From positions 1 to 22,942 of the IMG/VR virus record IMGVR_UViG_3300009703_003287: a DNA stretch of 22,942 nt; one strand, written 5' to 3'. This document shows, piece after piece, positions 1 through 22,644 of the stretch. Both the position numbers and the translations under genes were made by a program. Within the stretch, counting starts at the first letter, position 1; every line of letters begins with the position of its first letter. The notes under the pieces are model-generated. The model did no database searches. It saw only the letters and a list, made by a program, of their open reading frames with translations, and was not told where the DNA came from. The DNA is from a virus.

Positions 1-725
1 AAGATGAAGATGAAGAAGAATCAAATTTACTAGCTAAAAACAAAAAATATGTTTTTGTTTTTGTAGGAAATGGTCAATTTAGAAAGGGCGTAGATTTAGT
101 AATTAACGCTTGGAAAGATTCATTTAAAGTAGCAGATAACTGTCAGTTATTTATTAAAGATAGCCCGCAGATATACGGACAAACATCAATTTTTCAACAA
201 ATAATGGCCTTGCAATATAATACTGGATGTGGTACTATAGTATATAATGACGATTGTTTATCTGAAAGAGAGATGGCAAAAATTTATAAACAGGCTTTTG
301 CTATTGTTGCTCCCTATAGGGGAGAAGGATTCGGTATGCATATTCAAGAAGCAACAGCTTGTGGAGCTATTCCAATTATAACTAGGGGCGGTCCTACTGA
401 TGAATTTATTCCTGATGAGATTTCAGTAAAAATTGCAACAGGTCGAAAAATGGAAAATCTTATGGCAGATCATATATTTGCAGGTAAACCTGGAGACGCT
501 CTTACTTTAATGAGTACACATGGATATGTTTTAGAACCAGATTTTGATGAATTAAAAAAACAAATGAAAAATTTATATCATCATCACGAAAAGCAAAATA
601 TAATTAATAGAGTTAAAAGTGTAAAATTAGAAAATACATGGGAGAATGTTGGTAATCGTTATTTAAGTGTTTTTGACACCGTATTAAGCAAAAACGATAA
701 ACCTTCAAGAATGAACTATGTCTGA
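1..725 (+). CDS. Glycosyltransferase, GT4-like C-terminal domain (5' end outside window)
   Basis: The reading frame is open from base 3, so the gene begins upstream; the ATG at 204 is internal. The visible part matches the C-terminal Rossmann domain of GT-B (GT4-type) glycosyltransferases. A strand near codons 17-22 (VFVFVG) is followed by GQFRKGVDLVINAW. The nucleotide-sugar signature GEGFGMHIQEATACG holds the family's E-x7-E pair, with the first Glu codon at 324, followed by PIITRGGPTDEF. These enzymes move a sugar from a nucleotide donor to an acceptor. The acceptor here is unknown; in phages it may be virion protein, DNA or host surface glycan. The stop overlaps the iscA-like start by 8 nt, implying translational coupling. 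The family assignment is strong and the substrate is not inferable. Confidence 0.85.
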   Translation, partial: DEDEEESNLLAKNKKYVFVFVGNGQFRKGVDLVINAWKDSFKVADNCQLFIKDSPQIYGQTSIFQQIMALQYNTGCGTIVYNDDCLSEREMAKIYKQAFAIVAPYRGEGFGMHIQEATACGAIPIITRGGPTDEFIPDEISVKIATGRKMENLMADHIFAGKPGDALTLMSTHGYVLEPDFDELKKQMKNLYHHHEKQNIINRVKSVKLENTWENVGNRYLSVFDTVLSKNDKPSRMNYV

Positions 726-1272
726 TAAAAAGTCACAGCTACCTTCCGAGGTTAAAGATTGGTTAGATGGATTTTTCAGTGATGAAAAACCTACTGAGCC
801 TATCGAAAATGAACCATCTTCGTTTGATTTATTTGCTTTTATGGAAGATCAAAATAATCTTTCTCTTGATGAAAAAATTCTCAGAGATTTTCACGGACAC
901 CAAGTTGAGTTTGATGAAACTTATACAGATGTGTTACCTTCTCTTTCTAAAAAAGCTGAAATATATATTTCTTCTCAGTTAGAAAAAGATAATGAATATT
1001 TTAGAATTCAAATATTAGGCGGAGGTTGCAGTGGATTTCAATATGAATTTAAAATTACAGACGATCCTTTGTTAGAAGACGATAAACGTATTTCACAGAA
1101 TCCTCCTGCGTATGTAGATTCTACAAGTCTAACTTACATGCCAGGAGCCTTAATTGATTGGGATGATTCTGATTTTGGTGGACAATTAGTAATTAATAAT
1201 CCCGGAGCCAAACAAAGTTGTGGATGTGGTTCTAGTTTTTCTTTTGATTTTGACGCCTATGAGCCTGTATAA
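718..1272 (+). CDS. iscA: IscA/HesB-type iron-sulfur carrier protein with acidic N-terminal extension
   Basis: This is an A-type carrier that would receive Fe-S clusters or iron and deliver them to apo-proteins. The C-terminal ~105 residues carry the family signature: GGGCSGFQYEF with Cys104, then SCGCGSSF with Cys168 and Cys170. The 64- and 66-residue spacings equal those of E. coli IscA (C35/C99/C101), so the three cluster ligands look intact. Standard IscA is ~107 residues. This one has 184, because residues 1-75 form an added region rich in Asp, Glu and Phe (WLDGFFSDEK, SFDLFAFMED) with no family I recognise. The extension may be a docking segment for a phage target. It overlaps the upstream glycosyltransferase by 8 nt and the next oxygenase by 14 nt, so it is co-translated with an iron enzyme. 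IscA-like genes are known from other marine phages. Confidence 0.9.
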   Translation: MSDKKSQLPSEVKDWLDGFFSDEKPTEPIENEPSSFDLFAFMEDQNNLSLDEKILRDFHGHQVEFDETYTDVLPSLSKKAEIYISSQLEKDNEYFRIQILGGGCSGFQYEFKITDDPLLEDDKRISQNPPAYVDSTSLTYMPGALIDWDDSDFGGQLVINNPGAKQSCGCGSSFSFDFDAYEPV

Positions 1273-1897
1273 TTGGATAGTTAAACAAAGTGGACTACCT
1301 TGGTTAGAACTAAGGATAGAAATTCCTTTTGTAGAAATGCTTGAAGAAGCAGTAGCATTAAAAGAAGAATTTGTAGAACATAGAGATGGAGATGCTCCTG
1401 CTGGTTATTCACATAAAGGATGGAAAAGTTTATGTATACATGGAATAAGTTCAGAAAAAACTAATCATTATACACAATATGGATATAAAAATCATGAAGA
1501 AACACCATATATTTGGACAAAAGCTAGCGAAAAAGCTCCTGTTACTGTTAAATTTTTTAAAGAGACATTCCCCATGTCACAATACTTTAGAGTACGATTT
1601 ATGTTGCTTGAACCAGGGGGATATATTAGTCCGCATTGCGACACAGAAAAAAGCTCGTTAAGCCCTATTAATATAGCACTTAATATGCCAAAAAACTGTC
1701 TTTTTAAGTTTGAAAAACATGGGCTAGTTCCTATAAAAACAGGACAGAGTTTTTTACTGGATGTATCTAATAAACACGCTTATATAAATAAATCATTTGA
1801 TGATAGGTATCATATTATTGCACACGGAAAGACAAATACACCCGAATGGAGAAAGTTAGTAGAAGTAAGCTATGCGAAAAATGGGATTAGGACATAA
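1259..1897 (+). CDS. Aspartyl/asparaginyl beta-hydroxylase-like 2-oxoglutarate Fe(II) oxygenase
   Basis: The 212-residue product resembles the Asp/Asn hydroxylase branch of cupin-fold 2OG-Fe(II) oxygenases (PF05118-like). These use Fe(II), O2 and 2-oxoglutarate to hydroxylate protein side chains or small molecules. The double-stranded beta-helix core reads PGGYISPHCDTE (His126, Asp128), NIALNMPKNCLFKFE, SFLLDVSNKHAYINKS (His173) and DDRYHIIAHG (Arg183). These give the expected HxD...H iron triad plus the Arg that binds the 2OG carboxylate. I chose ATG 1259 over the in-frame ATG 1220, because 1220 lies deep in iscA while 1259 gives the usual short overlap and a family-like N terminus. The substrate is unknown. 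The neighbours (glycosyltransferase, Fe-S carrier, second oxygenase at 3463) suggest a modification module. Confidence 0.82.
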   Translation: MSLYNWIVKQSGLPWLELRIEIPFVEMLEEAVALKEEFVEHRDGDAPAGYSHKGWKSLCIHGISSEKTNHYTQYGYKNHEETPYIWTKASEKAPVTVKFFKETFPMSQYFRVRFMLLEPGGYISPHCDTEKSSLSPINIALNMPKNCLFKFEKHGLVPIKTGQSFLLDVSNKHAYINKSFDDRYHIIAHGKTNTPEWRKLVEVSYAKNGIRT

Positions 1898-3242
1898 TTA
1901 TATAGTAGCTATCTTAGATGATAGAGAGAGTATACACCAATCTAATAAAGAATACGCTGATAAATTTAAAGAATTAACAGAATTTTTTACAAGATTTAAA
2001 TATTTTGGCGAAATTTTATATGGTAAGTCTATAAATGAGATTTTAGAAAAAGCTTTACAGACTGATAATAAGTACTGTATTATTCAATGCGTTGGACATT
2101 TTATTAAAGAAAAAAACTTTTTTGATTTAGTAGAAAATTGGACTTCTAAAAAAGATTTTTTTATAACAGGACATATCATGGATAAACACACTAAGAATAG
2201 CGCTCATCCTGAAGGTAACGGTTATTACGGCTTACATAAACAATGTTTACTTGTTAATTTACATTATTATAAAAAATTTAATAAACCAGAATACGGAAAA
2301 AAGAATTCTGGAGAATATGAATTAAGAATACCAAAACGAGCTAAACAAGATATTCATGATGATTACACCCCTATAGGATTAATGGGTAGTGAAGAAACAC
2401 AAGTATGTACTCCAATTGTTGATGGATGGAATTTTATAAATAAAAGTATAGAAAATAATTTAACTGTTTATAATTTTCACCCTAAACTTAGAGATTCTAA
2501 ACAATATACTTACCCAAATAAAAACTTAGATGAGTTACAAACACAGCTAAGTTGGATAAATCAAATTTTAGTTTATGCACCACAATGCGTATTTTTTTGG
2601 AATACAGAAAAATATTATGATATTAAAAATACAGAACTAGAAATAGATAGAATAGATTATTTATATAGTGTGGCAGCTAGTTTTAAACCAAACTTTATCT
2701 TAAATAAATACGGATTCACAGATAAAACAGAAATAGTATTTTTTGATTATAGTAAACAAGCGTTAGCTTTTAAAAAGCTGTTATTAGAACAATGGGACGG
2801 TGAAAACTACCCTAAGTTTTTATATGATATTAAAAAGAAATATCCACAGATAAATGAGACTACCCATAATCCTTACGGAGATGATGATTATAATAAATTA
2901 TGGGAAATAGAAATAGAAAATTGGCAAAGCACAGAAAATATAAAAGAACATTGGGATAGATATAAAAAATTAAAACATAGTTTTATTTACTGTGATGTAT
3001 GTAAGAACCCCGACAAAGTTACTAAACTAATTAAACCTAAAGCTAATTCTGTTATTTGGTGGAGTAACGTTTTTCACACAGTAAATGCCCACTATGTTAG
3101 AAGGTTGTCTGAATTAAAAAATATTTATGAAAATAATTGGATACAAAAAATAAAAAATCAAAATCCAGATATTTGGATTTTTGGAAAGGATTATTTAAAT
3201 AATCCAGTAGAGGGAACAACCATTTTAAAATATAAGGAGTAA
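1872..3242 (+). CDS. Hypothetical protein, 456 aa, possibly two Rossmann-like halves
   Basis: I do not recognise this family with confidence. The start at 1872 overlaps the upstream oxygenase by 26 nt; an in-frame ATG at 1881 would shorten the overlap. The first ~190 residues alternate strands and helices (IVAILDD near 10, YCIIQCVGHF near 73, DFFITGHIMD near 95, YGLHKQCLLVNLHYY near 118) and faintly recall GT-A glycosyltransferases, but no clear DxD is present. The last ~200 residues (TEIVFFDYSKQALAFKKLL, HSFIYCDVC, SVIWWSNVFHT) faintly resemble the strand order of class I methyltransferases, without a visible glycine-rich SAM loop. No signal peptide or membrane span is seen. Position between two 2OG oxygenases suggests a shared modification task, which is inference only. 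Confidence 0.75.
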   Translation: MRKMGLGHNYIVAILDDRESIHQSNKEYADKFKELTEFFTRFKYFGEILYGKSINEILEKALQTDNKYCIIQCVGHFIKEKNFFDLVENWTSKKDFFITGHIMDKHTKNSAHPEGNGYYGLHKQCLLVNLHYYKKFNKPEYGKKNSGEYELRIPKRAKQDIHDDYTPIGLMGSEETQVCTPIVDGWNFINKSIENNLTVYNFHPKLRDSKQYTYPNKNLDELQTQLSWINQILVYAPQCVFFWNTEKYYDIKNTELEIDRIDYLYSVAASFKPNFILNKYGFTDKTEIVFFDYSKQALAFKKLLLEQWDGENYPKFLYDIKKKYPQINETTHNPYGDDDYNKLWEIEIENWQSTENIKEHWDRYKKLKHSFIYCDVCKNPDKVTKLIKPKANSVIWWSNVFHTVNAHYVRRLSELKNIYENNWIQKIKNQNPDIWIFGKDYLNNPVEGTTILKYKE

Positions 3243-3248
3243 AATAAA

Positions 3249-3473
3249 ATGGATAAGGAACAAATTGATTCCGCAGTAGAATGGGTTAACGAAGGTAAAT
3301 CTTTAGATGACTGGTTACGAGTTAACGGTTATACAAACAATAAAGAAGAAGCCAAAGCAGAAATTGAAATCGCACTTTCCGGTAATACCCCTGCTCCCAA
3401 ACCTGAAGTCGAAGATGACGAGGATTGGGACGAAGAAGAAGATTGGGAAGACGACGACGAGGATGACGACTGA
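3249..3473 (+). CDS. Small protein with extremely acidic C-terminal tail
   Basis: A strong Shine-Dalgarno (AAGGAGT, 3234-3240) sits well before ATG 3249. The 74-residue product has a folded-looking first half of about 45 residues (DSAVEWVNEGKSLDDWL, NKEEAKAEIEIALSG), probably helical. A short Pro linker (NTPAPKPEVE) follows, then a tail of almost only Asp, Glu and Trp that starts near residue 54. I recognise no family. Acidic tails occur in phage SSB proteins and in DNA-mimic inhibitors, but no specific function can be assigned. It ends 11 nt inside the next gene, an oxygenase, so the two are probably coupled. The Asp-rich tail could be a substrate for the neighbouring aspartyl-hydroxylase-like enzymes; this is speculation. 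Confidence 0.8.
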   Translation: MDKEQIDSAVEWVNEGKSLDDWLRVNGYTNNKEEAKAEIEIALSGNTPAPKPEVEDDEDWDEEEDWEDDDEDDD

Positions 3474-4068
3474 TTTCGTTGTTGCAAAAACAAGAATAGA
3501 AGGAGAATGGTCTTCTATTATTAGTAAGTTAGATAAATGCGTATTTTTTAAATGCGATGATTATGATTTACGCGATGCCGTTACAGGGATTGCTATAAAA
3601 AGTGAATCAGGTAATATTAATGATTTATTAATAACGAAAAGACCAGAAATCCCAGAGGACTATTCTCTAACTATTTTATATGAACATCCTGAAATAAAAA
3701 AATTAATAAATTTTTTTAAATTAGAAACCACAAGAATTAGAATTTTTAAACAAGAACCTGGAGCTAAAACTAAATTACACTTAGATTATAATAATGTTTT
3801 AGCTGCGAGTAATAATGATTTTTTAATTAGAATATGGACGGCACTAAATGACGATAAGAATTTTATTTATACATTTAGAGAAGGGGAAGCCCTTATAAAA
3901 AACATAAAATTAAAAACAGGGGAATCAATAATATTTAATCCTGATACCGTGCAACATGGAGCTATTAATAATAGTTCGGATAAAGCAAGATATAGTTTAA
4001 ATATTATAGGTAAACCAAACCCTTGGTTAAAAACATTTATAGAAAAAGAAGAAACTATAAGAATATGA
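3463..4068 (+). CDS. Second 2OG-Fe(II) oxygenase-like (Asp/Asn hydroxylase-type) protein
   Basis: The 201-residue product has its own cupin-type oxygenase core: EPGAKTKLHLDYNN (His106, Asp108), FLIRIWTALNDDKNFIYTF, TGESIIFNPDTVQHGAINNS (His165) and DKARYSLNIIG (Arg176). The HxD...H...R order and spacing match the enzyme at 1259, but the two sequences differ widely, so this is not a recent duplicate. I chose ATG 3463. The longer in-frame ATG 3307 would read the acidic gene in another frame, giving a Lys/Thr-rich artefact, and 3463 leaves only an 11 nt overlap. The likely reaction is hydroxylation or a related oxidation with Fe(II) and 2-oxoglutarate; the substrate is unknown. A non-catalytic binding role cannot be excluded. 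Confidence 0.75.
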   Translation: MTTDFVVAKTRIEGEWSSIISKLDKCVFFKCDDYDLRDAVTGIAIKSESGNINDLLITKRPEIPEDYSLTILYEHPEIKKLINFFKLETTRIRIFKQEPGAKTKLHLDYNNVLAASNNDFLIRIWTALNDDKNFIYTFREGEALIKNIKLKTGESIIFNPDTVQHGAINNSSDKARYSLNIIGKPNPWLKTFIEKEETIRI

Positions 4069-4071
4069 ATA

Positions 4072-4356
4072 ATGAATATTGATATTGGAGTAGGATATAC
4101 AAAAAATAACGGGCAAACTGTTAAAGTAACTGTTAATGAGTTTAGAAACTCTATGTATGTCCACATTAGAGAGTATAAGATGGATGGAGATACAGGATTC
4201 TGGTTTCCTACTAAATCTGGATATGCAATGCCTGCAGAAGAAATAGACACAATAATTGATTTATTATCTGATGCAAGTCAAAAAATAGCAAAATACTCTA
4301 GAAAATTTTCAAATCAATTAGAATTATTTGAGGAGTACAATACGCATGAGTGTTAA
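4072..4356 (+). CDS. PC4/Sub1-like single-stranded DNA-binding protein
   Basis: The 94-residue product matches the transcriptional coactivator PC4 fold. GQTVKVTVNEFRNSMYVHIREYKMDG covers the curved beta-sheet with the family's VxxxEFRxxxYVxIREY pattern; the next strand is TGFWFPTKSGYAMPAEEI; the C-terminal helix is EEIDTIIDLLSDASQKI. PC4 proteins dimerise and bind single-stranded DNA and melted duplex. A homologue is known in phage T5, and bacterial members exist. It starts 3 nt after the oxygenase stop and overlaps the next HTH gene by 11 nt. A role in transcription of replicating DNA or in recombination is plausible. A gp32-like SSB is encoded separately at 18960, so this is probably not the main replication SSB. 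The tail after ~75 is less conserved. Confidence 0.78.
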   Translation: MNIDIGVGYTKNNGQTVKVTVNEFRNSMYVHIREYKMDGDTGFWFPTKSGYAMPAEEIDTIIDLLSDASQKIAKYSRKFSNQLELFEEYNTHEC

Positions 4357-4660
4357 GGCATGGTCTGATGAAGACGAAAGTAAACTAGTTGAATTATATA
4401 AAAGTGAAGGTGTTAAAGACGTTCATGAACTAGCAGGTATATTCGATAAAGGATATCGAAGTGTTATTAGTAAACTTGTTCAACTAAAAATATACGAAAA
4501 ACCTGACCATAATAAAGATAAAAAGTTAAAAACTGTAAAGGTTATGCTTAGAGAGTTAGAAGAATTATTAGATATTAGTATTGAAGGTACTAATTTAAAT
4601 AAAAAAGAAAATTTAACAATCTTAGTAACTGCACTAGAAAATAAGTTAAAGAATGGATAA
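4346..4660 (+). CDS. Myb/SANT-like helix-turn-helix protein
   Basis: The 104-residue product begins MSVKAWSDEDESKLVELYK. This fits a Myb-like first helix with its hallmark Trp, followed by VHELAGIFDKGYRSVISKLVQLKIY as the second helix and recognition helix. The same repeat type (helix, then EIA..LGKS..SVR.KL..LGL) occurs four times in the protein at 6853. After a basic linker (HNKDKKLKTVK, ~53-63) comes a predicted helical segment, MLRELEELLDISIE, possibly for dimerisation. ATG 4346 is chosen because GAGGAG at 4330-4335 lies 10 nt upstream and the overlap with the PC4-like gene is short; the in-frame ATG at 4328 lies before that Shine-Dalgarno. It is probably a DNA-binding regulator; its target is unknown. 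Confidence 0.75.
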   Translation: MSVKAWSDEDESKLVELYKSEGVKDVHELAGIFDKGYRSVISKLVQLKIYEKPDHNKDKKLKTVKVMLRELEELLDISIEGTNLNKKENLTILVTALENKLKNG

Positions 4661-7618: not shown

Positions 7619-7930
7619 ATGTCCAAACGAGAATTTAATCTATACGATTTAGAAGAAAAAACTTTAGACAACTTACTGAATTTGCCAGAGCTATCAAAAT
7701 CTAAGTATATTAATGAATTAATAGAAAGATTTTATCCAGAGGTAAATCCTGATGGAGAAATGTACGCTGACTTACAACTAAATTATAGATCAAGTTGGCT
7801 ACTAGAAAAATTATATCGAGCAAATCCTGTGTTTAAGGAAAGCTTTACCTTTGTCTATACTAAAACAGGACTTGTAAGAAATATGATAAGTGATTTGTAT
7901 TTTACAGATGACCACCTTATTACACATTAG
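7619..7930 (+). CDS. Hypothetical protein, 103 aa
   Basis: I do not recognise this family. The product is soluble-looking and acidic. It has a helical N-terminal half (EFNLYDLEEKTLDNLLNLPELSKSKYINELIERF, described here by position 5-38), then an aromatic-rich stretch (SSWLLEKLYRANPVFKESF) and a C terminus ending DDHLITH. No Cys pairs, nucleotide-binding loop, signal peptide or membrane span is visible. No clear Shine-Dalgarno precedes ATG 7619, which lies 13 nt after a terminator hairpin, so expression probably depends on read-through. AGA/AAA codon use returns to the phage norm, in contrast with the gene before it. It heads a run of three small genes. Confidence 0.7.
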   Translation: MSKREFNLYDLEEKTLDNLLNLPELSKSKYINELIERFYPEVNPDGEMYADLQLNYRSSWLLEKLYRANPVFKESFTFVYTKTGLVRNMISDLYFTDDHLITH

Positions 7931-7943
7931 CGGAGAATAAAGA

Positions 7944-8276
7944 ATGTATCTTGTTACCACAGTCCAACAAAACGTACCGGGAATATATAACACAAGAGAA
8001 GAATACGAAGCTAGCGCAGAATATGATTCTTCAGGGCCTACAGCCTTTATAAATAAACATAGAGATAACACTGTTAGAAGGGCCGCAGCTTTTAGCCCAA
8101 ACTCTGAATCTAATACAACAAACGTATTAAGACAAATAGGATGGAAATCTGCGGTACAAAAATGTTATTTTACACTTGATATGTTAGAAAACTATCCAAG
8201 AACTGAAGAAACTGCTCGCGGTTATATGGTTATTAGAGAAATATTTACAAAAGATGAGGCCCAAGGACGTAGATAA
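7944..8276 (+). CDS. Hypothetical protein, 110 aa (possible paralogue of the next gene)
   Basis: The gene has a good Shine-Dalgarno (GGAG within AGCGGAGAATAAAG) before ATG 7944. The product has no family I know. It contains VPGIYNTREEYEASA near residues 11-25, a basic patch (HRDNTVRRAAAF) and a C-terminal part NVLRQIGWKSAVQKCYFTLD followed by IREIF. The downstream protein has a similar layout: VYANTEEFAS near its N terminus, then FVPSYDSS, NVMQQI and TEIF at matching distances. This suggests an old tandem duplication. No catalytic motif is visible. Confidence 0.75.
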   Translation: MYLVTTVQQNVPGIYNTREEYEASAEYDSSGPTAFINKHRDNTVRRAAAFSPNSESNTTNVLRQIGWKSAVQKCYFTLDMLENYPRTEETARGYMVIREIFTKDEAQGRR

Positions 8277-8277
8277 A

Positions 8278-8604
8278 GTGGCATACCAAACAAAACATAG
8301 GTTTCATCAAACAAATAATACTGTATACGCTAATACAGAAGAATTTGCCTCAGACTTATCTATTTTACTTAAAAATGCTCAAGAAGCACACTCATCAAAT
8401 ATAGTATCTATTACAAATACATTTGTTCCTAGTTATGATTCTTCAAAAACTATTGGTAATGTAATGCAACAAATTATTGTTTATGATAGTTTTGAAAGTT
8501 ATAAATATTTACAAATAGATCTTGCGAAAAACATAGACGCAACAAAAGCTAATTCAACTACAATGTTCACAGAAATATTCTGGGGAGACTATAAAGAAAT
8601 TTAA
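8278..8604 (+). CDS. Hypothetical protein, ~108 aa (possible paralogue of the preceding gene)
   Basis: I do not recognise the family. I prefer GTG 8278, which has AAGGA 10 nt upstream (8263-8267) and starts directly after the previous stop. An in-frame ATG at 8254 would add eight residues and overlap the previous gene by 23 nt. The N terminus from 8278 also lines up better with the upstream protein (VYANTEEFAS against IYNTREEYEAS). The body holds SITNTFVPSYDSSKTIGNV and YKYLQIDLAKNI. It is last in its small operon and is followed by a clear terminator at 8642. Confidence 0.7.
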   Translation: MAYQTKHRFHQTNNTVYANTEEFASDLSILLKNAQEAHSSNIVSITNTFVPSYDSSKTIGNVMQQIIVYDSFESYKYLQIDLAKNIDATKANSTTMFTEIFWGDYKEI

Positions 8605-8641
8605 CTTCTTTACACACCCTTAGAAAATATATATATTATAC

Positions 8642-8675
8642 AACCTGCCCATTCTCATGAGGTGGGTTTTTGTTT
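8642..8675 (+). terminator. Rho-independent terminator
   Basis: AACCTGCC (8642-8649) pairs with GGTGGGTT (8661-8668) as an 8-bp stem with two G-U pairs. A short CAT/ATG helix is possible inside the loop, and TTTTTGTTT follows. It ends the three-gene unit starting at 7619. Its last T residues form part of the next promoter's -35 box. Confidence 0.8.
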
Positions 8676-8702
8676 GACAATTAATACAATTTATTATATT
8701 AT
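8674..8702 (+). promoter_or_regulatory. Sigma-70 promoter for the UV-damage endonuclease
   Basis: TTGACA at 8674-8679, a 17-nt spacer and TATTAT at 8697-8702. The expected start near 8709 gives a leader of about 21 nt before ATG 8730. The promoter abuts the terminator, leaving no spare bases between units. Confidence 0.8.
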
Positions 8703-8729
8703 TACATATAGAATACTAATGAGGAATAA

Positions 8730-9803
8730 ATGGAATACTTTAACAAAACCAACGAAGATTGGCGACTAGGATTATGCTGTCAATTTCACGATAGAAACTT
8801 AGCAGTAAAATTTAATGCAAATACTACAACAAAAACATCTTTTTTAAAAGATAGGTCAAAAGCGCGAGTAGCAGCTACTCGTAATGTAGATAAACTAAAA
8901 TGGATTTTAGAATATTTAGCACAACAACCTAAGAATTTTAGATGTTATAGAATGACGTCTAATATGCTTCCTGTATACACGTTACCAGAAGCTAAAGAAG
9001 ACTATAGGTTATTTGAAGGTCTATTAATAGAAAAACTAAAAATTGCAGGAAAAGTAGCTATTGAAAATGAAATTAGAGTTTCTATGCATCCCGGACAATA
9101 TACTGTGTTAGGTAGTAACAATAAAGACGTTGTAGAAAAAGCAATTGAAGATATAGAATATCACGCTTTTATTGGAAAAGCTATGGGAATTCCCGCAGAA
9201 GATTACTCTATAAATATACATTTACAAGGATTATATGGCGGGAAACATGAAGACGGTATTAAACGTTTCGCTACTAATTACCAATATTTATCAGACTATG
9301 CACAAAAAGCTCTCTCAGTAGAAAACGAAGATAAACCTAATGGGTATGATATAGAACATACCTTAGAACTCGCGCAAAGAATACCAATCAAATGTACCTT
9401 AGACATTCATCATTATGCATGTCACAGGATGCGAGATTCAGAAAAAGTTAAAAACTCAGAAGGTAAAATTGTCAATAGAAAAATTAGAGATGAAGTTAGA
9501 CATATTACTGTAAACGATGATTACTTTAAAGAAGCAGTAAAAACTTGGAAAGGTCGTCGTCCTTTATTTCATAAATCACAATCGTTTCCATTAGATTACG
9601 AAGAATACTGGATGAAAGTTAATGCTCACTCAGATATTTATTATGACGAAGATCTAATGTCTTTAGCAATTCCTATGCTTGAGTATGCAGATTTTGACGT
9701 TGAAGCAAAGAACAAAGAATACGCTGTTGCTCGTTTTTACAAGTATATAAAAGAAGAAGAAGAACTAGCAGGAGAGCCCTTAAAATTTAAGCGGCTCTCT
9801 TAG
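8730..9803 (+). CDS. uvsE: UV damage endonuclease, UvdE/UvsE family
   Basis: This family nicks DNA 5' of UV photoproducts (and some abasic and other lesions) in a TIM-barrel active site with a metal cluster. The 357-residue product shows the expected run of signatures: LGLCCQF (14-20), FRCYRMTSNMLP, IRVSMHPGQYTVLGS, YSINIHLQG, ALSVENEDK and CTLDIHHYACHRM, which carry the His/Glu/Asp metal ligands, then PLFHKSQS and AHSDIYYDEDLM. Length fits the family (about 300-360 in bacteria). GAGGAA precedes ATG 8730. The gene is transcribed alone from its own promoter and its last codons form a hairpin. A UV-repair nuclease would protect phage DNA in sunlit water; that ecological reading is inference. 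Confidence 0.95.
   Translation: MEYFNKTNEDWRLGLCCQFHDRNLAVKFNANTTTKTSFLKDRSKARVAATRNVDKLKWILEYLAQQPKNFRCYRMTSNMLPVYTLPEAKEDYRLFEGLLIEKLKIAGKVAIENEIRVSMHPGQYTVLGSNNKDVVEKAIEDIEYHAFIGKAMGIPAEDYSINIHLQGLYGGKHEDGIKRFATNYQYLSDYAQKALSVENEDKPNGYDIEHTLELAQRIPIKCTLDIHHYACHRMRDSEKVKNSEGKIVNRKIRDEVRHITVNDDYFKEAVKTWKGRRPLFHKSQSFPLDYEEYWMKVNAHSDIYYDEDLMSLAIPMLEYADFDVEAKNKEYAVARFYKYIKEEEELAGEPLKFKRLS
9771..9800 (+). terminator. Hairpin embedded in the last codons of uvsE
   Basis: GAGAGCC-CTTAA (9772-9783) pairs with TTAAG and GGCTCTC (9787-9791 and 9793-9799), with one bulged C at 9792 and a tight AAT loop. The whole structure lies within the last ten codons and stops just before TAG 9801-9803. Downstream bases are only moderately T-rich (TTAGTCTATTG). 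It is probably a terminator or 3' mRNA-protecting stem. Confidence 0.68.
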
Positions 9804-12044: not shown

Positions 12045-12907
12045 TGGACATAATAGAAGCTCTTAGTCTAAAAGGAATTACTTACAAAACAACTAATAAC
12101 CCTAATGAATTGTTAGTTCAATGTACTTCAGGAAATCATGACGATAATTCGCCTAGTATGCAATATAATTTAGAAAAAAATATATTTCATTGTTGGTCCT
12201 GTGGATACTCTGGAGGATCAACCAAATTTTTAGAAAGTATTGGAATAAAAACAAAACTTCCAATAGAAAGTAAACAACCTTTTAAAATAAATAAATTAAA
12301 AAATAAACTAAATGAACGGATAGAGTATGGTAATTTATCTTTACCAAAAGATTTTAAACCTGCTTACGGAACATTTAAAAATATAGGACCAACTACTTTT
12401 AAAGAATTTAACGCTTTTTTTACTGATGAATTCCAATTAGACGGGTATTTATGTATACCTGTTTATCAATTCGGAAAACTAAGATTTATTGAAGGTAGAA
12501 ATAGATTTAAAAATGAAAAATCTAAATACTATAGACGCCCAAATAAGGCTAAAACATCTGATATTTTATTTCCATTAGACAAACTTAATAATCCCAAACA
12601 AGTAAACTTAGTAGAAGGATTATTTGATATGTTAAATATGTGGCAAAACGGTTTTAAAAATACTTTATGTATATTTGGAACTACAAATTTTGGAAAAGAA
12701 AAAGTAAAGCTATTAGATAACTTAGGAATAGTTAGTGTAAATATAATGATGGACGGGGATTTAGCTGGTAAAACAGCAGCAAAGAAAATAAAAAAGCTAT
12801 TAGAGGATAACGATATCCATTCAACTATTATAACGCTGCCTGTAAATAAAGATCCAGGTGAGTTATCAGCACACGAAATTAGTTTTTTAATTGAGCAAGG
12901 ACAATAA
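12044..12907 (+). CDS. DnaG-like DNA primase (zinc-binding + TOPRIM)
   Basis: Primase synthesises RNA primers for the replisome. The N-terminal zinc ribbon has Cys27, His32, Cys50 and Cys53 in the CHC2 order, with SPSMQYN between the ligand pairs and HCWSCGYSGG at the second pair. The TOPRIM core shows VEGLFDMLNMW (Glu191, the EGxxD motif), CIFGTTNFG and IMMDGDLAGKTAAKKI (Asp237, Asp239), which bind metal. At 287 residues it is half the size of DnaG and lacks the C-terminal helicase-binding domain. It must therefore contact the helicase in another way, perhaps through the helicase N-terminal domain. It is the last gene of its operon; a new promoter begins 15 nt after its stop. Confidence 0.9.
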   Translation: MDIIEALSLKGITYKTTNNPNELLVQCTSGNHDDNSPSMQYNLEKNIFHCWSCGYSGGSTKFLESIGIKTKLPIESKQPFKINKLKNKLNERIEYGNLSLPKDFKPAYGTFKNIGPTTFKEFNAFFTDEFQLDGYLCIPVYQFGKLRFIEGRNRFKNEKSKYYRRPNKAKTSDILFPLDKLNNPKQVNLVEGLFDMLNMWQNGFKNTLCIFGTTNFGKEKVKLLDNLGIVSVNIMMDGDLAGKTAAKKIKKLLEDNDIHSTIITLPVNKDPGELSAHEISFLIEQGQ

Positions 12908-12911
12908 CAGA

Positions 12912-12927
12912 TGCAATAATATTTGCA
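12912..12927 (+). promoter_or_regulatory. Near-palindrome overlapping the polymerase promoter (possible operator)
   Basis: TGCAA (12912-12916) and TTGCA (12923-12927) are inverted repeats around a 6-nt AT centre, and the right arm is part of the -35 box. The position would suit a repressor site. The signal is short and could be chance in AT-rich DNA. Confidence 0.3.
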
Positions 12928-12951
12928 ACAAGGTAACAAAAATTGTATAAT
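12923..12951 (+). promoter_or_regulatory. Sigma-70-like promoter for the polymerase-SSB operon
   Basis: TTGCAA at 12923-12928, a 17-nt spacer and a perfect TATAAT at 12946-12951. The expected start near 12958 gives a leader of about 22 nt. This rules out the in-frame ATG at 12923 as the main polymerase start. Confidence 0.78.
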
Positions 12952-12979
12952 AAACAGGATAAAAAAGGAAAAACAACAA

Positions 12980-15214
12980 ATGGCTGAAGTATTATTTGTA
13001 TACGCTTCAAAAGCAGAAAAAGAACCAGTAAAAATAATAAAAAACTATGAAGAATCATTAGATTTTGACGTAGCATTTTTATGTTCAGAAAAGAAAGACA
13101 AAATTTTAAAGAAAGATGTGGATTTAGATCTTTCTATATTTGAGAAATATAAAGTTGTTTGCCCTGTAGGAGCAGACTCTTTAAAATATTCTATAGGTAT
13201 GACAGGAATTACAAAGTATAATGGTATGTTTATTGAAAAAAAATATATACCTGTCATACACCCAAATCTAACAGTATTTAAACCACAATATGAAGAAGAC
13301 ATATATAAAGCCTTACAAAACGTCCTAAAAGTAATAAACGGAGAAATTGCAAGCGAAAGAAAACCAAAAAATTATTCAACAATTGAAACTACACAAGAAT
13401 TTGATAAATATTTTAAAGAGTTAAAGAGTGCAGAAACATTAGTGGTGGATATTGAAACTACATCACTTTCTCCAAGAAAAGGAAATGTTTTAGGTATAGC
13501 TTTTAGTACAAAAGTTAACGAAGGTGTATATATAACTTCTGATATTTGTAATATTTATAAGGAAGAACTTCATAAATTATTCTTAGAGAAAAAATGTGTT
13601 TTTCATAATTGTAAATTTGATGTCGGCTTTTTAAACTATGAATTTGGTTTTGAATTTCCAGACTTTGAAGATACTATGTTACTTCATTATTGTCTAGAAG
13701 AAGCTGTAGGAACGCACGGACTTAAATCTCTTGCACTTAGATTTACTGATTTAGGCGACTATGAAAAAGAGTTGGATGACTATAAAAAAGTTTTTGCAAG
13801 ACAAAATAAAATAAAATTAGCAGATTTTAATTATGGTATGATCCCGATGGACATACTTGCACCTTATGCTTGCCAAGATGCTGATGGTACTTTTCAACTA
13901 TTTGAAAAATTCTATCCTCTTGTAACTAATAACCAAAGATTTAATAATCTTTATAATAAAATCTTAAAACCTGCTACTAAAACATTGTTAATGTTAGAAA
14001 GTAACGGTGGACCAATAGACGCAAATAAATTAAATAGTATAAAAACAGAATATGAAATTGATATAGAAGAATGTGAAAACGAAATATTTTTAGATCCTGC
14101 TGTTCAAAGATTTGAAAGAATATATGAAAAAAACTTCAATCCAAATAGCACTATGCAATTAAGAGAACTATTCTTTAAAATTTTACAATTGAAACCTTCA
14201 AAGAAAACAGACTCTGGTGCTTGGTCTGTAGATAAAGAAGTACTAGCTGGGCTTAATCACCCTTTATCAGAAGCTGTTCTTGACCTTAGAGAAAAATCCA
14301 AAATGTTAGGAACATATATTTCAAATATTGTTGGAGGAGTAGACGCAGATTCTAGACTACGAAGTAGTTTTAATATACAGGGAACAACAAGCGGTCGCCT
14401 CTCTAGTTCTGGTGTACTAAATTATCAAAATATCCCAAGAGATAATAAAGATATTAAGAAAATATTTAAAGCTAGAGAAGGATTTAGTATTGTTCAGTGT
14501 GATTTAGGAACTGCAGAAGTTTACTATGCTGCTGCTTTAAGTAACGACCGTTTTTTACAAAAAGCATTTATTGAAAAACTAGACTTTCATTCTTACATAG
14601 CAAAACAAATATTTAATTTGCCGTGTAAGGTGGAAGAAGTTAAAGATTATTACTCAGATAAAAGACAACATGCAAAAGCAATTACCTTTGGTATTATGTA
14701 TCAAGCAGGGCCAGCAAAAGTAGCTCAAACAGCCGACGTAACTCCGCAAGAAGCTAAGATATTTATCAATAAATATTTTAGAGAAGCAAGAGAGTTAAAA
14801 CGTTTTATTGACGCTAGTAATGAATTTATAGAAAATAACGCATATATCTATAGTTTCTTTGGAAGAAAACGTAGATTACCAGAAAGTAAATCTACCAACG
14901 CAGGTGTTGCTAAACACTCTGTCAGAAGTGGTGTTAATTTCTTAGTTCAAAGTGTTGCCTCTGATATTAACTTACTAGGAGTGATTGATGCTATGGAATG
15001 GATTAAGGAAAATAAGTACCAAAAAGAAATTATTCCTTTTACAGTAGTTCACGACTCAATTGTTGCTGAAGTTAAAAATGAATTAGTTGATGAATGGGTA
15101 GTTAACTCAAAAAAATGTATACAAATAGATAGAGGTATATCTATACCTGGCAGGCCTATAGGCGTAGATTTCGAAATAGGACCTAGTTGGGGAGAACTAG
15201 AAAACTATGAGTAA
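12980..15214 (+). CDS. polA: DNA polymerase, family A, with 3'-5' exonuclease
   Basis: This is the phage replicative polymerase. ATG 12980 lies downstream of the promoter and after AAGGA, giving 744 residues. After a ~145-residue N-terminal region (not a 5' nuclease) comes the proofreading exonuclease: LVVDIETTS (Asp157, Glu159), CVFHNCKFDVGFL and PYACQDADGTF. The polymerase domain has the TSGRLSSSGVLNYQNIP primer-template motif. Motif A is VQCDLGTAEVYYAA (Asp508, Glu513). Motif B is RQHAKAITFGIMYQ (Arg562, Lys566, Phe570, Tyr574). Motif C is VVHDSIVAE (Asp692). Phe570 occupies the E. coli Pol I F762 position, a residue reported to vary with viral lifestyle. All catalytic residues are present. 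It is first in a seven-gene operon ending at the SSB gene. Confidence 0.96.
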   Translation: MAEVLFVYASKAEKEPVKIIKNYEESLDFDVAFLCSEKKDKILKKDVDLDLSIFEKYKVVCPVGADSLKYSIGMTGITKYNGMFIEKKYIPVIHPNLTVFKPQYEEDIYKALQNVLKVINGEIASERKPKNYSTIETTQEFDKYFKELKSAETLVVDIETTSLSPRKGNVLGIAFSTKVNEGVYITSDICNIYKEELHKLFLEKKCVFHNCKFDVGFLNYEFGFEFPDFEDTMLLHYCLEEAVGTHGLKSLALRFTDLGDYEKELDDYKKVFARQNKIKLADFNYGMIPMDILAPYACQDADGTFQLFEKFYPLVTNNQRFNNLYNKILKPATKTLLMLESNGGPIDANKLNSIKTEYEIDIEECENEIFLDPAVQRFERIYEKNFNPNSTMQLRELFFKILQLKPSKKTDSGAWSVDKEVLAGLNHPLSEAVLDLREKSKMLGTYISNIVGGVDADSRLRSSFNIQGTTSGRLSSSGVLNYQNIPRDNKDIKKIFKAREGFSIVQCDLGTAEVYYAAALSNDRFLQKAFIEKLDFHSYIAKQIFNLPCKVEEVKDYYSDKRQHAKAITFGIMYQAGPAKVAQTADVTPQEAKIFINKYFREARELKRFIDASNEFIENNAYIYSFFGRKRRLPESKSTNAGVAKHSVRSGVNFLVQSVASDINLLGVIDAMEWIKENKYQKEIIPFTVVHDSIVAEVKNELVDEWVVNSKKCIQIDRGISIPGRPIGVDFEIGPSWGELENYE

Positions 15215-15800: not shown

Positions 15801-16299
15801 ATATTCTAAAATAAAATTTCCTTTTTATGGACTAAAAAATAAACCGTATAATATACAGTTTGAATTAGACAAAATTTTTTTACAAATATCTGAAAGAGAT
15901 AATCATATAAAAGTACTTGATGACAAAAGTATTGAAGGAGATTATTTTACAAGACTAGTAAAAATGGACGAAGAAAAATATACTAGAGTAAAATTTGATA
16001 TAACCTGTTTAAATATTGGAGATATTATAAGAAACAACATAAAATGGGGATTAGATTCTTCTGCAATAATATTTGATTTCTCTAAGAAAGAAAAATTTTC
16101 TCTGACTTGTAGAAAAATTAAAAAAATAACAAACAATTATGTATGGGTAAATAAAATAAGTTACCCTTTTAAAATATCAAACATTAAAAAAGCAGAAAAT
16201 AAAGATCAAATATATCTAAGTTTAGTAAATATTGATAGAAAATGGTATCCTTATCAATTTTCTTATAGCGAACATAATAGAAAGGTTATTTATTTATGA
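15793..16299 (+). CDS. Hypothetical protein, 168 aa
   Basis: I do not recognise this family. The product is basic and beta-rich by pattern. It has alternating hydrophobic strands (NIQFELDKIFLQISE, YTRVKFDITCLNIGDII, SAIIFDFSKKEKFSLTC, YVWVNKISYPFKI) with many Lys and Ile, and two Cys residues far apart. No signal peptide, membrane helix or nucleotide-binding loop is seen. Its stop and the pyrB start overlap as ATGA, and it overlaps the histidine phosphatase by 8 nt, so all three would be translated together. Its position next to PyrB does not make it a PyrI homologue: PyrI's C-terminal four-Cys zinc site is absent. Confidence 0.75.
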   Translation: MSKYSKIKFPFYGLKNKPYNIQFELDKIFLQISERDNHIKVLDDKSIEGDYFTRLVKMDEEKYTRVKFDITCLNIGDIIRNNIKWGLDSSAIIFDFSKKEKFSLTCRKIKKITNNYVWVNKISYPFKISNIKKAENKDQIYLSLVNIDRKWYPYQFSYSEHNRKVIYL

Positions 16300-17171
16300 T
16301 TTTAAATAAAAACAAACATTTTTTAACTTTAGACGGTGTATCGAAAGATAAAATTATAGAATTTTTTGAATATTGCGACCGTACTAATTATACTAATTTT
16401 ATAAATCGTATGGTGTTAACTAATTTATTTTATGAACCTTCTACAAGAACTAGTTCTAGTTTTCACTCCGCTGCTTATGAACTTGGAATTAATGTAATTC
16501 CAATTAATGAAGTTCATTACTCTAGTGTAACAAAAGGAGAAACCCTTGAAGATACAATTCAAACATTAGCATGTTATTCTAATGTAATTGTACTGAGACA
16601 TCCTGAAAAGGGAGCAGCAAAAAAAGCTGCAAAAATATCCTCAATACCAATTATAAATGCAGGGGATGGAGAAGGTGAGCACCCTACACAAACCTTGTTA
16701 GATTTATATACAATATGGAAAAATAAAAAAGAAATAGATGGACTAACTATAACTTTAATGGGAGATTTAAAAAATGGAAGAACAATTCATAGCCTTATAA
16801 AAGTACTAAGACAGTTTAAAGTTAAAATAAACTTAATAAGCCCTCATGAATTGCGAATACCTTCTGAATATTATGTAGGGATAACAGATATAGAATCAAC
16901 AACATTAACTCCATACGCTAGTGATACTGATGTGCTATATGTAACTAGAATTCAAAAAGAAAGGGGTTCATCAGGATTTTATGAATTAACTAATAAAGAT
17001 TTTTCTTTATTAAAAGATTCGGCAATTATTTTACACCCATTTCCTAGAAATAAAGAAATTCCGACATGGGTAGATCAAGATACTAGGGCAAAATACTTTG
17101 AACAGATTAAGAATGGTGTCATAGTAAGAAAAGGATTACTTAGATTAATATTAGATTATGAACAAGGTTAA
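16296..17171 (+). CDS. pyrB: Aspartate carbamoyltransferase catalytic chain
   Basis: ATCase joins carbamoyl phosphate and aspartate to make carbamoyl aspartate, the committed step of pyrimidine synthesis. The 291 residues cover both domains. The carbamoyl-phosphate site shows PSTRTSSS (49-55), TKGETLEDT (Lys80, the Lys84 of E. coli), LRHPEKGAA (Arg101) and GEHPTQTLLDL (His129, Gln132). The aspartate domain shows MGDLKNGRTIHS (Arg162), TRIQKERG and LHPFPRNKEI. All residues I know to be catalytic in E. coli PyrB are present, and the length is slightly under the usual ~305 because the first helix and the 240s loop are short. It overlaps the unknown gene before it by 4 nt and the UvsW-like helicase after it by 14 nt. 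Activity looks intact. No regulatory chain is nearby. Confidence 0.95.
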   Translation: MILNKNKHFLTLDGVSKDKIIEFFEYCDRTNYTNFINRMVLTNLFYEPSTRTSSSFHSAAYELGINVIPINEVHYSSVTKGETLEDTIQTLACYSNVIVLRHPEKGAAKKAAKISSIPIINAGDGEGEHPTQTLLDLYTIWKNKKEIDGLTITLMGDLKNGRTIHSLIKVLRQFKVKINLISPHELRIPSEYYVGITDIESTTLTPYASDTDVLYVTRIQKERGSSGFYELTNKDFSLLKDSAIILHPFPRNKEIPTWVDQDTRAKYFEQIKNGVIVRKGLLRLILDYEQG

Positions 17172-20495: not shown

Positions 20496-21193
20496 AAATA
20501 AAATTTCACCAAGTTAGAGAGCTACCAGAACCTATAGAAAAACCTTATCCAGGATCAAGAAATTTACCCGATTGGTTTAAAAACTTATCTAACAAAACTA
20601 CAGGTGATTTTAAAACTGTTAAAAAATGTCCACCATTTTTAGATGCCATGTCAACAGGATATATTATACCTGTTCCAATGGATTTAATTATTGCAATAGA
20701 CGAAAAAGGGGAAGACTGGGTCTTATTTCCAAAAAAAGGAGATAAAGAAAAGTATGGAAAATATACTATTGTTGAGAGTCATGATGCGAGTCAATACCCA
20801 GGAACCCCTTTCGCAAATATGCCTGTCCGTAAATTATACACTCCTTGGATTATTGAAACTGAACCGGGATATTCTTTGTTATTTTTACCCCCTATTAATA
20901 GGTTTGATTTACCCTGTGTACCTATAAGTGGACTAGTTGAGTGTGACAATTACTTTAACACAGTAAATTTTCCTTGTGTTTTTCCTACATTAAGACCTGG
21001 ATATGAAGTTAGATTAACTAAAGGTGATCCTTTAGTACAGGTTGTACCTATAAAAAGAGATACCTGGGACGCAAAACATACTTTTTTAGATGATGACATT
21101 CTAAACAGAGCACATGACTATCGAGAAAGTATGGCTGCCGACAGAGATGATTTTTATAAAAGAAAAGCGTGGGAAAAGAAAAATTTTAAATGA
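20492..21193 (+). CDS. Hypothetical protein, 233 aa, possibly DUF6065-like
   Basis: I recognise the pattern only loosely. The order PDWFKNL, VKKCPPFLDAMSTGYIIPVP, DWVLFPKK, SQYPGTPF, YTPWIIETEPGYSLLFLPPIN, GLVECDNYFNTVNFPC and GDPLVQVVPIKRDTW recalls an uncharacterised phage and bacterial family often labelled DUF6065. That label is from memory and unchecked. The protein looks beta-rich and cupin-like, with many Pro and aromatic residues, and has no clear metal triad. The C terminus (RAHDYRESMAADRDDFYKR) is charged and helical. It sits between a glycosyltransferase and an epimerase with 4-nt overlaps on both sides, so it likely serves the same modification pathway. Confidence 0.8.
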   Translation: MKIKFHQVRELPEPIEKPYPGSRNLPDWFKNLSNKTTGDFKTVKKCPPFLDAMSTGYIIPVPMDLIIAIDEKGEDWVLFPKKGDKEKYGKYTIVESHDASQYPGTPFANMPVRKLYTPWIIETEPGYSLLFLPPINRFDLPCVPISGLVECDNYFNTVNFPCVFPTLRPGYEVRLTKGDPLVQVVPIKRDTWDAKHTFLDDDILNRAHDYRESMAADRDDFYKRKAWEKKNFK

Positions 21194-21906
21194 AAATTTT
21201 AGTTACAGGACACAAAGGATTTATCGGTTCTCAGCTAGTAGAAAAACTAAAAAATTTAAATCACGAAATTCATGGAATTGATCACCATGAAAATAAAGAT
21301 ATTTTAACATCAGAATTTCCAAAAGTTGATTTAGTTATACACTTAGCAGGAATTGGAGGAGTAAGGGAGAGTCTCGCTAACCCTGCAAAATATTGGCTCA
21401 ATAACGTAGAGGGAACTAAGCGTATTCTTAATCATTATCAAAAAGTAAGAGTATTAGTTGCGGGATCGAGTTCACAATATGAGCCAGAATTAAATCCATA
21501 TGCAGCAAGTAAACATATTATTGAATACATTAAACATCCTAATGTGTGCTTTATGCGGTTTCATACTGTTTATAACGAAAAACCTCGTAAAGATATGTTC
21601 TTTGATAAACTACTCAAAGGCACTCTAGAATACGTTACTACACACGAAAGGGATTTTATACATTTAGATGACCTAACGGATGCTGTTATTTTACTTATGG
21701 ATAAAGATATCACGGGACCTATAGACATTGGAACCGGTAAATCTATAAAAATACAAGATATTGCTCCAGACCTGCCTGTTAAACTAGAAACTATTGGTGA
21801 AAGAATAAAAACTAAAGCAAATATAAAATTAATGACTGGTATGGGTTTTAAACCTAAACATACAGTAAACAATTTTTTAAAAGTAATAAACAATGGAAAA
21901 ATATAA
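21190..21906 (+). CDS. NAD(P)-dependent nucleotide-sugar epimerase/dehydratase
   Basis: This is an extended short-chain dehydrogenase that remodels nucleotide sugars. The 238-residue product opens with the NAD-binding loop TGHKGFIGS (6-14), has VIHLAGIGGVRES, then VAGSSSQY and PYAASKHIIEY, which hold the catalytic YxxxK (Tyr104, Lys108). Late motifs are CFMRFHTVYNEKPRKDMF, FIHLDDLTDAVILLMD and PIDIGTGKSIKIQDI, all typical of UDP-glucose/galacturonate epimerases and relatives. It is shorter than the usual ~310-330, with loops missing in the substrate domain, so the exact sugar cannot be named. It overlaps the cupin gene by 14 nt. Confidence 0.9.
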   Translation: MKILVTGHKGFIGSQLVEKLKNLNHEIHGIDHHENKDILTSEFPKVDLVIHLAGIGGVRESLANPAKYWLNNVEGTKRILNHYQKVRVLVAGSSSQYEPELNPYAASKHIIEYIKHPNVCFMRFHTVYNEKPRKDMFFDKLLKGTLEYVTTHERDFIHLDDLTDAVILLMDKDITGPIDIGTGKSIKIQDIAPDLPVKLETIGERIKTKANIKLMTGMGFKPKHTVNNFLKVINNGKI

Positions 21907-22225
21907 ATTTAATAAATCTATCGGTGGAAAAATTGTTAAAAAAGACGATAGATATATTGTAACAGACAATAATATATTAGATACCTTAGTATTAAGTTCT
22001 ACAAATTTAAACCCTAATAAAAGTACTGGTGGTCACAGCCACGTTGGGCAAGAAGAAATTTACTTCTTCATTAAAGGTTCTGGAGAAATGGAACTCGATG
22101 ATAAAAGATTTTCAGTCTGTGAGGGAGAAGTTGTACTGATTAAAAGTGGAGTATATCACCGAGTCCATTCGGGTGACGATGGTTGTTATTTTATTTGTGT
22201 ATTTAACGGAAATAGAAAACAATGA
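21893..22225 (+). CDS. Cupin-domain protein
   Basis: The 110-residue product is a single cupin barrel. TGGHSHVGQEEIYFFIKGSG (45-64) carries the first metal motif (His48, His50, Glu54), MELDDKRFSVCEGEVVLIKSG is the middle strand pair, and VYHRVHSGDDGCYFICV supplies the second-motif His. Small cupins of this type include sugar-phosphate isomerases, dTDP-sugar epimerases and oxygenases. The context (epimerase, cytidylyltransferase) favours sugar metabolism. It overlaps the cytidylyltransferase by 4 nt. The fold assignment is firm and the reaction is not determined. Confidence 0.88.
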   Translation: MEKYKFNKSIGGKIVKKDDRYIVTDNNILDTLVLSSTNLNPNKSTGGHSHVGQEEIYFFIKGSGEMELDDKRFSVCEGEVVLIKSGVYHRVHSGDDGCYFICVFNGNRKQ

Positions 22226-22644
22226 AAATAGGATTTACATGTTCAACATTTGATTTATTACATGCAGGACACATACAAATGTTACGAGAAGCTAAAAGTC
22301 AGTGTGAATATTTAATATGTGGATTACAGGTTGACCCTAGTGTGGATAGACCTGAAAAAAATTCTCCTATTCAAACAGTTGTAGAAAGATATACACAACT
22401 TAACGCTGTTAAATATGTAAATGAAATTATCCCTTATTGCACTGAACAAGATTTAGAAGATATTTTAGAAATGTATCATATTGATGTAAGAATTATAGGA
22501 TCAGAGTATAGGGATGGAAAATTTACTGGAAGAGCGATATGTGCTAAAAGAGATATAGAATTATATTTTAATAGCAGGGACCATAGATTTAGTTCTAGTG
22601 ACCTTAGAAAAAGAGTCCGTAATCAAGACACAAATGTAACGTAA
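22222..22644 (+). CDS. Cytidylyltransferase, glycerol-3-phosphate type (TagD-like)
   Basis: The enzyme would activate an alcohol phosphate with CTP, for example glycerol-3-phosphate to CDP-glycerol. The 140-residue product opens IGFTCSTFDLLHAGHIQML with the HxGH nucleotide-binding motif (His14, His17), followed by LICGLQVDPSVDRPEK, SPIQTVVERYTQLNAVKYV and IRIIGSEYRDGKF-like strands. It ends with the RFSSSDLRKR motif that replaces RTxGISTT. TagD is 129 residues, so length fits. Ethanolamine-phosphate and FAD synthetase-like relatives share the fold. It is the last gene of the cluster. CDP-glycerol-type donors are used for teichoic-acid-like or sugar-alcohol decorations in bacteria and some phages. 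Confidence 0.88.
   Translation: MKIGFTCSTFDLLHAGHIQMLREAKSQCEYLICGLQVDPSVDRPEKNSPIQTVVERYTQLNAVKYVNEIIPYCTEQDLEDILEMYHIDVRIIGSEYRDGKFTGRAICAKRDIELYFNSRDHRFSSSDLRKRVRNQDTNVT

Follow-up and report, generated by a model that had tools for sequence, protein, structure and literature searches.

An AspH-like oxygenase gene and the new family U456 are strictly paired at the optional end of a phage glycan operon

In the 22,942-nucleotide viral sequence analyzed here (IMG/VR virus record IMGVR_UViG_3300009703_003287, positions 1 to 22,942; hereafter the window), the gene for a putative AspH-superfamily Fe(II)/2-oxoglutarate (2OG) oxygenase (AspH; plus strand, 1259..1897) overlaps the gene for a 456-residue protein (U456; plus strand, 1872..3242). 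These two genes are strictly paired in everything examined and form the core of a block that runs from an IscA-like gene to a second oxygenase-like gene, Ox2. The block closes a conserved glycan operon but is optional, and the cassette, which is built around the new protein family U456, is a variation on glycan-modification cassettes already known from phages. We put at about even the chance that AspH and U456 work as a pair in an optional tailoring step closing the glycan operon, with IscA a separate component that shares the operon. This reading is based on strict co-occurrence, gene overlap, joint changes of state, the glycan-operon context and the predicted folds.

Co-occurrence of AspH and U456

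Relatives of U456 are encoded on ~270 IMG/VR stretches, a count based on short conserved peptides that may miss divergent members, and many of these loci (numbered with the prefix L below) are fragments. Presence was counted over 108 distinct contigs, with the contigs covering the place in question as denominators. AspH was found in 92/92, IscA in 80/80 and Ox2 in 94/106 contigs. When AspH alone was used as the query, 71 new loci were recovered, and U456 was adjacent in all 71; in L129, the U456 frame beside AspH starts late. In a scan with the upstream GT4-family glycosyltransferase gene (GT4) as the query, AspH and U456 were jointly present in 57 and jointly absent in 14 cases. Searches starting from the two flanking genes, PC4 and GT4, brought out the exceptions: in 14 contigs GT4 abuts the downstream PC4-like gene, with IscA, AspH, U456 and Ox2 all missing from the site, and AspH and U456 are absent along the entire block-less contigs, including those of 107 and 113 kb. 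In a GT4 tree with 72 rows, the two genes switch state 7 times, each time jointly. The overlap between them has a median length of 20 nt over 74 loci.

The other two genes behave differently. Ox2 is missing from 12/106 contigs, with its loss in one clade, and Ox2 without U456 was never seen where the contig covers the place. In L203, L263 and L264, which represent one phage, the tailed IscA stands alone at the site with AspH, U456 and Ox2 missing and an IscU gene downstream, whereas L320 carries AspH-U456-Ox2 without IscA and its AspH overlaps the end of GT4. The original prediction had grouped all these genes into one candidate system and had proposed gene-neighbor conservation as a check. 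On that check, AspH and U456 always stay together in a conserved order, while IscA and Ox2 are separable, as seen in L203, L320 and the Ox2-less clade.

In the window, all genes of the block are on the plus strand. The IscA-like A-type iron-sulfur (Fe-S) carrier with a conserved N-terminal tail (..KIL.DFHG..) occupies 718..1272 (PF01521, 7.3e-11) and overlaps AspH (PF05118, 7.5e-12) by 14 nt; AspH starts at ATG 1259, since GTG 1220 in the list of open reading frames (ORFs) is not the aligned start. AspH in turn overlaps U456 by 26 nt. A gap of 6 nt separates U456 from a 74-aa ORF with an acidic tail (plus strand, 3249..3473; from the ORF list), a poorly conserved small-protein slot occupied in many relatives by small ORFs (c18, c49). 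This ORF overlaps by 11 nt the optional Ox2 (plus strand, 3463..4068; start at ATG 3463), which appears to encode a second, diverged AspH-related 2OG oxygenase. The ratio of nonsynonymous to synonymous substitution rates (dN/dS) is ~0.02-0.23 for IscA, AspH, U456 and Ox2 (closest pairs of each), and these four are therefore real genes under purifying selection. On the left, GT4 (plus strand, 3..725; PF00534, 4.8e-15) overlaps IscA by 8 nt; its 5' end is cut by the window start, its relatives are ~390-400 aa long, and a complete copy lies in L001 at 7655-8857. On the right, the PC4-like gene (plus strand, 4072..4356; PF02229, 1.3e-9), which adjoins GT4 in block-less relatives, follows Ox2 after 3 nt and is followed by a gene for a helix-turn-helix (HTH)/D5-like DNA-binding protein (plus strand, 4346..4660; phrog_323, 4.3e-5). 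The ORF positions, Pfam matches and metal ligands thus agree with the originally described arrangement of an IscA-like protein, two HxD..H..R oxygenases, a 456-residue protein and a glycosyltransferase (GT) in overlapping frames.

Predicted folds and chemistry of U456 and the oxygenases

U456 had no match in Pfam, PHROG or solved-structure sequence searches, and a Pfam search of 56 members gave scattered weak matches only. Its sequence is nevertheless very strongly conserved despite the unusual motifs described below. An AlphaFold2 model built from 56 relatives (predicted local distance difference test, pLDDT, 80.5; predicted template modeling score, pTM, 0.67) has two domains. Residues ~8-216 superpose (VIA-align) on enzymes of the glycosyltransferase A (GT-A) fold, including BcsA (Z 9.0), the capsid-glycan GT A064R of PBCV-1 (2p6w, Z 8.8) and LH3 (Z 8.6), with alignments that cover ~150 residues and Z scores of 8.6-9.0 that are common for such folds. 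Residues ~222-453 superpose (VIA-align) on class I Rossmann proteins with Z 9-10.7, including the uncharacterized Leptospira protein 6ulo (Z 10.7) and the methyltransferase NNMT (Z 9.8 over 185 aligned residues; Foldseek prob 1.0); no sequence profile matched this domain. Full-length structural look-alikes were found among proteins of uncultured Caudovirales (template modeling score ~0.6, 14-20% identity). In the model, U456 thus resembles a GT-A domain joined to a methyltransferase. Structure prediction had been proposed for the 456-residue protein, and the predicted combination of a GT-A-like and a class I methyltransferase-like domain fits the suggestion of hydroxylation followed by glycosylation.

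AspH scored 45.8 bits against PF05118, for which the curated cut-off is 22.6, and its residues H126, D128, H173 and R183 are invariant. The HxD..H..R ligands are kept in every AspH and Ox2 entry inspected, although these entries overlap between loci and are not independent phages. Ox2 alone has a weak PF05118 signal, but PF05118 is matched by 21/30 of its relatives (best 1e-6), and the Ox2 and AspH profiles align with each other (hhalign 92%, E 6.6e-7). Among solved structures, the AspH profile comes closest to L-proline cis-4-hydroxylase (E 0.018). The carboxylate ligand of the phage protein is the Asp of HxD, whereas Gly stands there in the human AspH aligned with it. The phage AspH belongs to the PF05118 superfamily but, judged by this residue, is not AspH in the strict sense. 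In L012 (7688-8943), from a phage without Ox2, the stretch between GT4 and IscA holds a tandem pair of ORFs, homologous to each other and ~200 aa each, that have HxD-like motifs but no Pfam match; they are perhaps replacement oxygenases.

In the mechanism that we propose for the AspH-U456 pair, AspH would hydroxylate an acceptor, which may be a glycan, a group linked to a lipid or a side chain of a virion protein. U456 would then add a sugar and/or a methyl group to the hydroxylated acceptor. Ox2 may supply an additional oxidation in most lineages, and IscA, as a separate Fe-S/iron carrier, could keep the Fe enzymes supplied during infection. A more specific version, in which AspH hydroxylates a virion or surface-glycan acceptor that is then capped by a U456 family without the usual DxD and GxGxG motifs, as an independently evolved counterpart of LH3/L230, is on the unlikely side. 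The earlier idea that one system hydroxylates and then glycosylates is thus retained in part: conserved co-occurrence, the glycan operon and the modeled U456 fold are in line with it, whereas IscA is not obligate and Ox2 is dispensable.

Several observations weigh against a functional AspH-U456 pair with these activities. On well-supported branches of the GT4 tree there are only 3 independent pairs for these joint changes, which is suggestive and not decisive. Overlapping neighbors can be gained or lost jointly without a functional tie, and the overlap of ~20 nt makes the joint loss of AspH and U456 mechanically easy. In sampled alignment rows, with motif placement deduced from predicted strands, the expected DxD place of U456 holds Q-x-V/I-G-H and motif I reads A-A-S/A-F-K-P, not GxGxG; either domain could therefore be inactive or serve another role. 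Moreover, Z scores of 8-10 are reached by many GT-A and Rossmann folds and are only moderately specific, and the U456 halves had no match to the profiles of the GTc, GT2b and MTx proteins of the operon. On the other side, some GT-A enzymes function without DxD, and the acidic D292 after strand 2 of the methyltransferase-like domain is kept.

The nature of the acceptor separates two narrower alternatives. In one, the target of AspH is a side chain of a virion protein, and U456 glycosylates the hydroxyl so formed; the pair would then correspond to mimivirus L230 or animal LH3, split over two genes. The strict AspH-U456 pairing speaks for it, as does the resemblance of the U456 GT-A domain to GTs that include PBCV-1 A064R and the GT domain of LH3 (Z 8.6-8.8). 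However, the Z scores do not single out the LH3 and A064R GTs, U456 is without DxD, AspH is not a lysyl hydroxylase, and no collagen-like substrate turned up, with no search for one made. We regard this alternative as quite unlikely. In the other, which we hold to be rather improbable, AspH hydroxylates a metabolite resembling a free amino acid, or a lipid, yielding an unusual glycan building block that U456 attaches. The L-proline cis-4-hydroxylase match and the HxD aspartate, kept in the phage AspH and replaced by Gly in human AspH, are consistent with this, but that match is weak and no amino-acid or lipid activation genes were seen in the operon.

The role of IscA

IscA residues C104, C168 and C170 are invariant, the three cysteines (C..CxC) are present in all 277 entries (which likewise overlap between loci), and the IscA profile matches solved IscA/SufA-family proteins (best 6e-24). 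Fe-S carriers are already known as auxiliary metabolic genes of marine phages (PMC5332604). The original prediction had placed IscA in one iron-dependent system; as an obligate member of it, IscA is not supported, since L203 has IscA without AspH, U456 and Ox2, and L320 shows the reverse. The absence of IscA from L320 is given by both the PF01521 search and the lineage profile, with no ORF between GT4 and AspH; because the IscA of L342 escaped the PF01521 search but was found with the lineage profile, calls of IscA absence are weaker for divergent copies. Away from this site, the block-less contigs of L317/L318, L332 and L354 encode a different IscA. In L016 (3241-3669) and L017 (8979-9377), a NifU/IscU-like gene lies exactly between IscA and AspH (PF01592, 3.5e-29 for L016), and such partners near IscA are Fe-S biogenesis partners, not partners of 2OG enzymes. 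Since IscA is separable from the pair, another IscA lies elsewhere in block-less phages and IscU genes are neighbors, IscA probably does work of its own, and it is likelier a general Fe-S/iron helper than an obligate module member. A dock for AspH in the IscA tail was considered and ruled out, as the KIL-x-DFHG tail is kept in L203 without AspH.

An alternative that joins IscA, AspH, U456 and Ox2 in one system has IscA loading iron into the oxygenases. IscA is immediately upstream of AspH in nearly all of the 80 covered contigs, Escherichia coli IscA binds mononuclear iron and is a proposed iron chaperone (PMC12683245), mammalian PCBPs load iron into 2OG hydroxylases (PMC4106451), and in L228, an unrelated phage, a stretch of 2.8 kb holds an AspH-like gene together with genes for IscU and IscA. 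Nevertheless, besides the reciprocal losses in L203 and L320 and the persistence of the tail in L203, 45/46 other phage IscA loci are without an AspH-like neighbor. This alternative accordingly carries little probability as a whole, while mononuclear iron delivery by IscA to AspH and Ox2 is possible, though not obligate in L320. The L228 locus (12-3115) comprises an AspH-superfamily gene (PF05118, 9.8e-14), IscU, IscA and a cytochrome c-like ORF within ~3 kb, which makes it a second place where AspH and Fe-S genes are neighbors. Finally, it is very unlikely that a conserved gene order has simply carried these genes along without a joint function: the surrounding operon is likewise syntenic and IscA and Ox2 are gained or lost singly, but the compact block is gained and lost at one site, the metal ligands never vary, and AspH is always accompanied by U456.

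Glycan operon, phage lineage and closest known systems

The gene order GT2b-GT4-IscA-AspH-U456-(Ox2)-PC4-HTH is nearly invariant in 80 loci, and HTH follows PC4 in 76/76 loci having both. The upstream operon encodes a hexapeptide acyltransferase, a DegT aminotransferase, a GDP-mannose 4,6-dehydratase, an NAD epimerase, GT2-like enzymes and GT4. By established pathway logic, the 4,6-dehydratase, aminotransferase and acyltransferase would fit the synthesis of an N-acylated amino sugar. DNA polymerase, ligase, a D5-like regulator and helicase indicate that these uncultured aquatic phages are distantly T5-like. Among cultured phages, no U456 relative and no AspH or Ox2 relative at E 0.01 was found, the AspH consensus giving weak matches only, and no U456 relative was found in the cellular (bacterial) genomes searched. 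The sole AspH match in cellular genomes, L388 from a Flavobacteriales metagenome-assembled genome in GTDB, was rejected as a cellular copy: the contig is itself phage, with proteins mostly 90-95% identical to those of L012. It is likely a binning artifact or a hint of the host, and says nothing sure about the host.

Further genes lie in or near this region. In L001, the closest relative of the window, a TauD-family oxygenase and a monothiol (CGFS) glutaredoxin are encoded at 12870-14252 between the HTH and DUF3310 genes, as additional Fe/2OG and Fe-S genes within a variable slot. L043 (7046-10196) and L052 (11352-14508) carry a 3.1-kb gene pair (~322 and ~730 aa) between U456 and Ox2, of which the larger gene reads like tetratricopeptide repeats plus an FkbM-type methyltransferase. 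A 420-aa ORF in L040 (1653-2915), like cytochrome b of the bc1 complex, lies within the glycan operon and is unusual or an assembly fault. In the window itself, 16296-17171 in the phage replication region reads like an aspartate carbamoyltransferase gene and was not found in the flanks of the clustered relatives, and at the opposite end from the block (21190-22644) overlapping NAD epimerase-like, cupin and cytidylyltransferase-like genes make up a second small sugar-nucleotide cluster.

The AspH-U456 pair would link iron/2OG chemistry to glycan building in widespread uncultured T5-like aquatic phages and gives a new, many-member protein family a clear partner. Natural comparisons between phages with the pair, without it and with IscA alone make the role of each gene testable. 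They also advise caution, as the position of an Fe-S carrier next to Fe(II) enzymes does not by itself place it in the same machine.

Among known systems, the AspH of this lineage resembles the PF05118 superfamily, with AspH and L-proline cis-4-hydroxylase, over most of the protein and in HxD..H..R, and differs from human AspH in keeping the HxD aspartate. AspH has been reported in pelagimyophages (PMC7029224), also as PF05118 proteins of aquatic phages, but the match to that of Mosig EXVC030M covers half the length with only ~28% identity (E 0.5), and U456 was found in none of the cultured phages searched. IscA shares the IscA/SufA family, and sometimes an accompanying IscU, with other phage A-type carriers (PMC5332604), from which it differs by its extra conserved N-terminal tail and its fixed place in a glycan operon. 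PBCV-1 A064R is a rhamnosyltransferase-rhamnosyltransferase-methyltransferase of chlorovirus N-glycans (PMC9614988), and by its predicted folds U456 may likewise be a virus-encoded fusion of a GT-A domain and an S-adenosylmethionine (SAM) methyltransferase, with residues 1-216 superposing on A064R-D1 (2p6w, Z 8.8). Unlike A064R, U456 has one GT domain, not two, and is without DxD or GxGxG; no sequence similarity between them was found, and U456 is paired with an oxygenase in phages of bacteria. Mimivirus L230 and animal LH3, which combine a lysyl hydroxylase with a glycosyltransferase (PMC9614988), share with AspH-U456 the possible hydroxylate-then-glycosylate logic with an Fe(II)/2OG enzyme and the GT fold predicted for U456 (LH3, Z 8.6). 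The phage pair differs from them in its two separate, overlapping genes, its oxygenase of the AspH superfamily, not PLOD, and its extra methyltransferase-like domain. U456 would thus have its closest analogues in L230/LH3 for logic and in A064R for domain make-up, and membership in either is not claimed.

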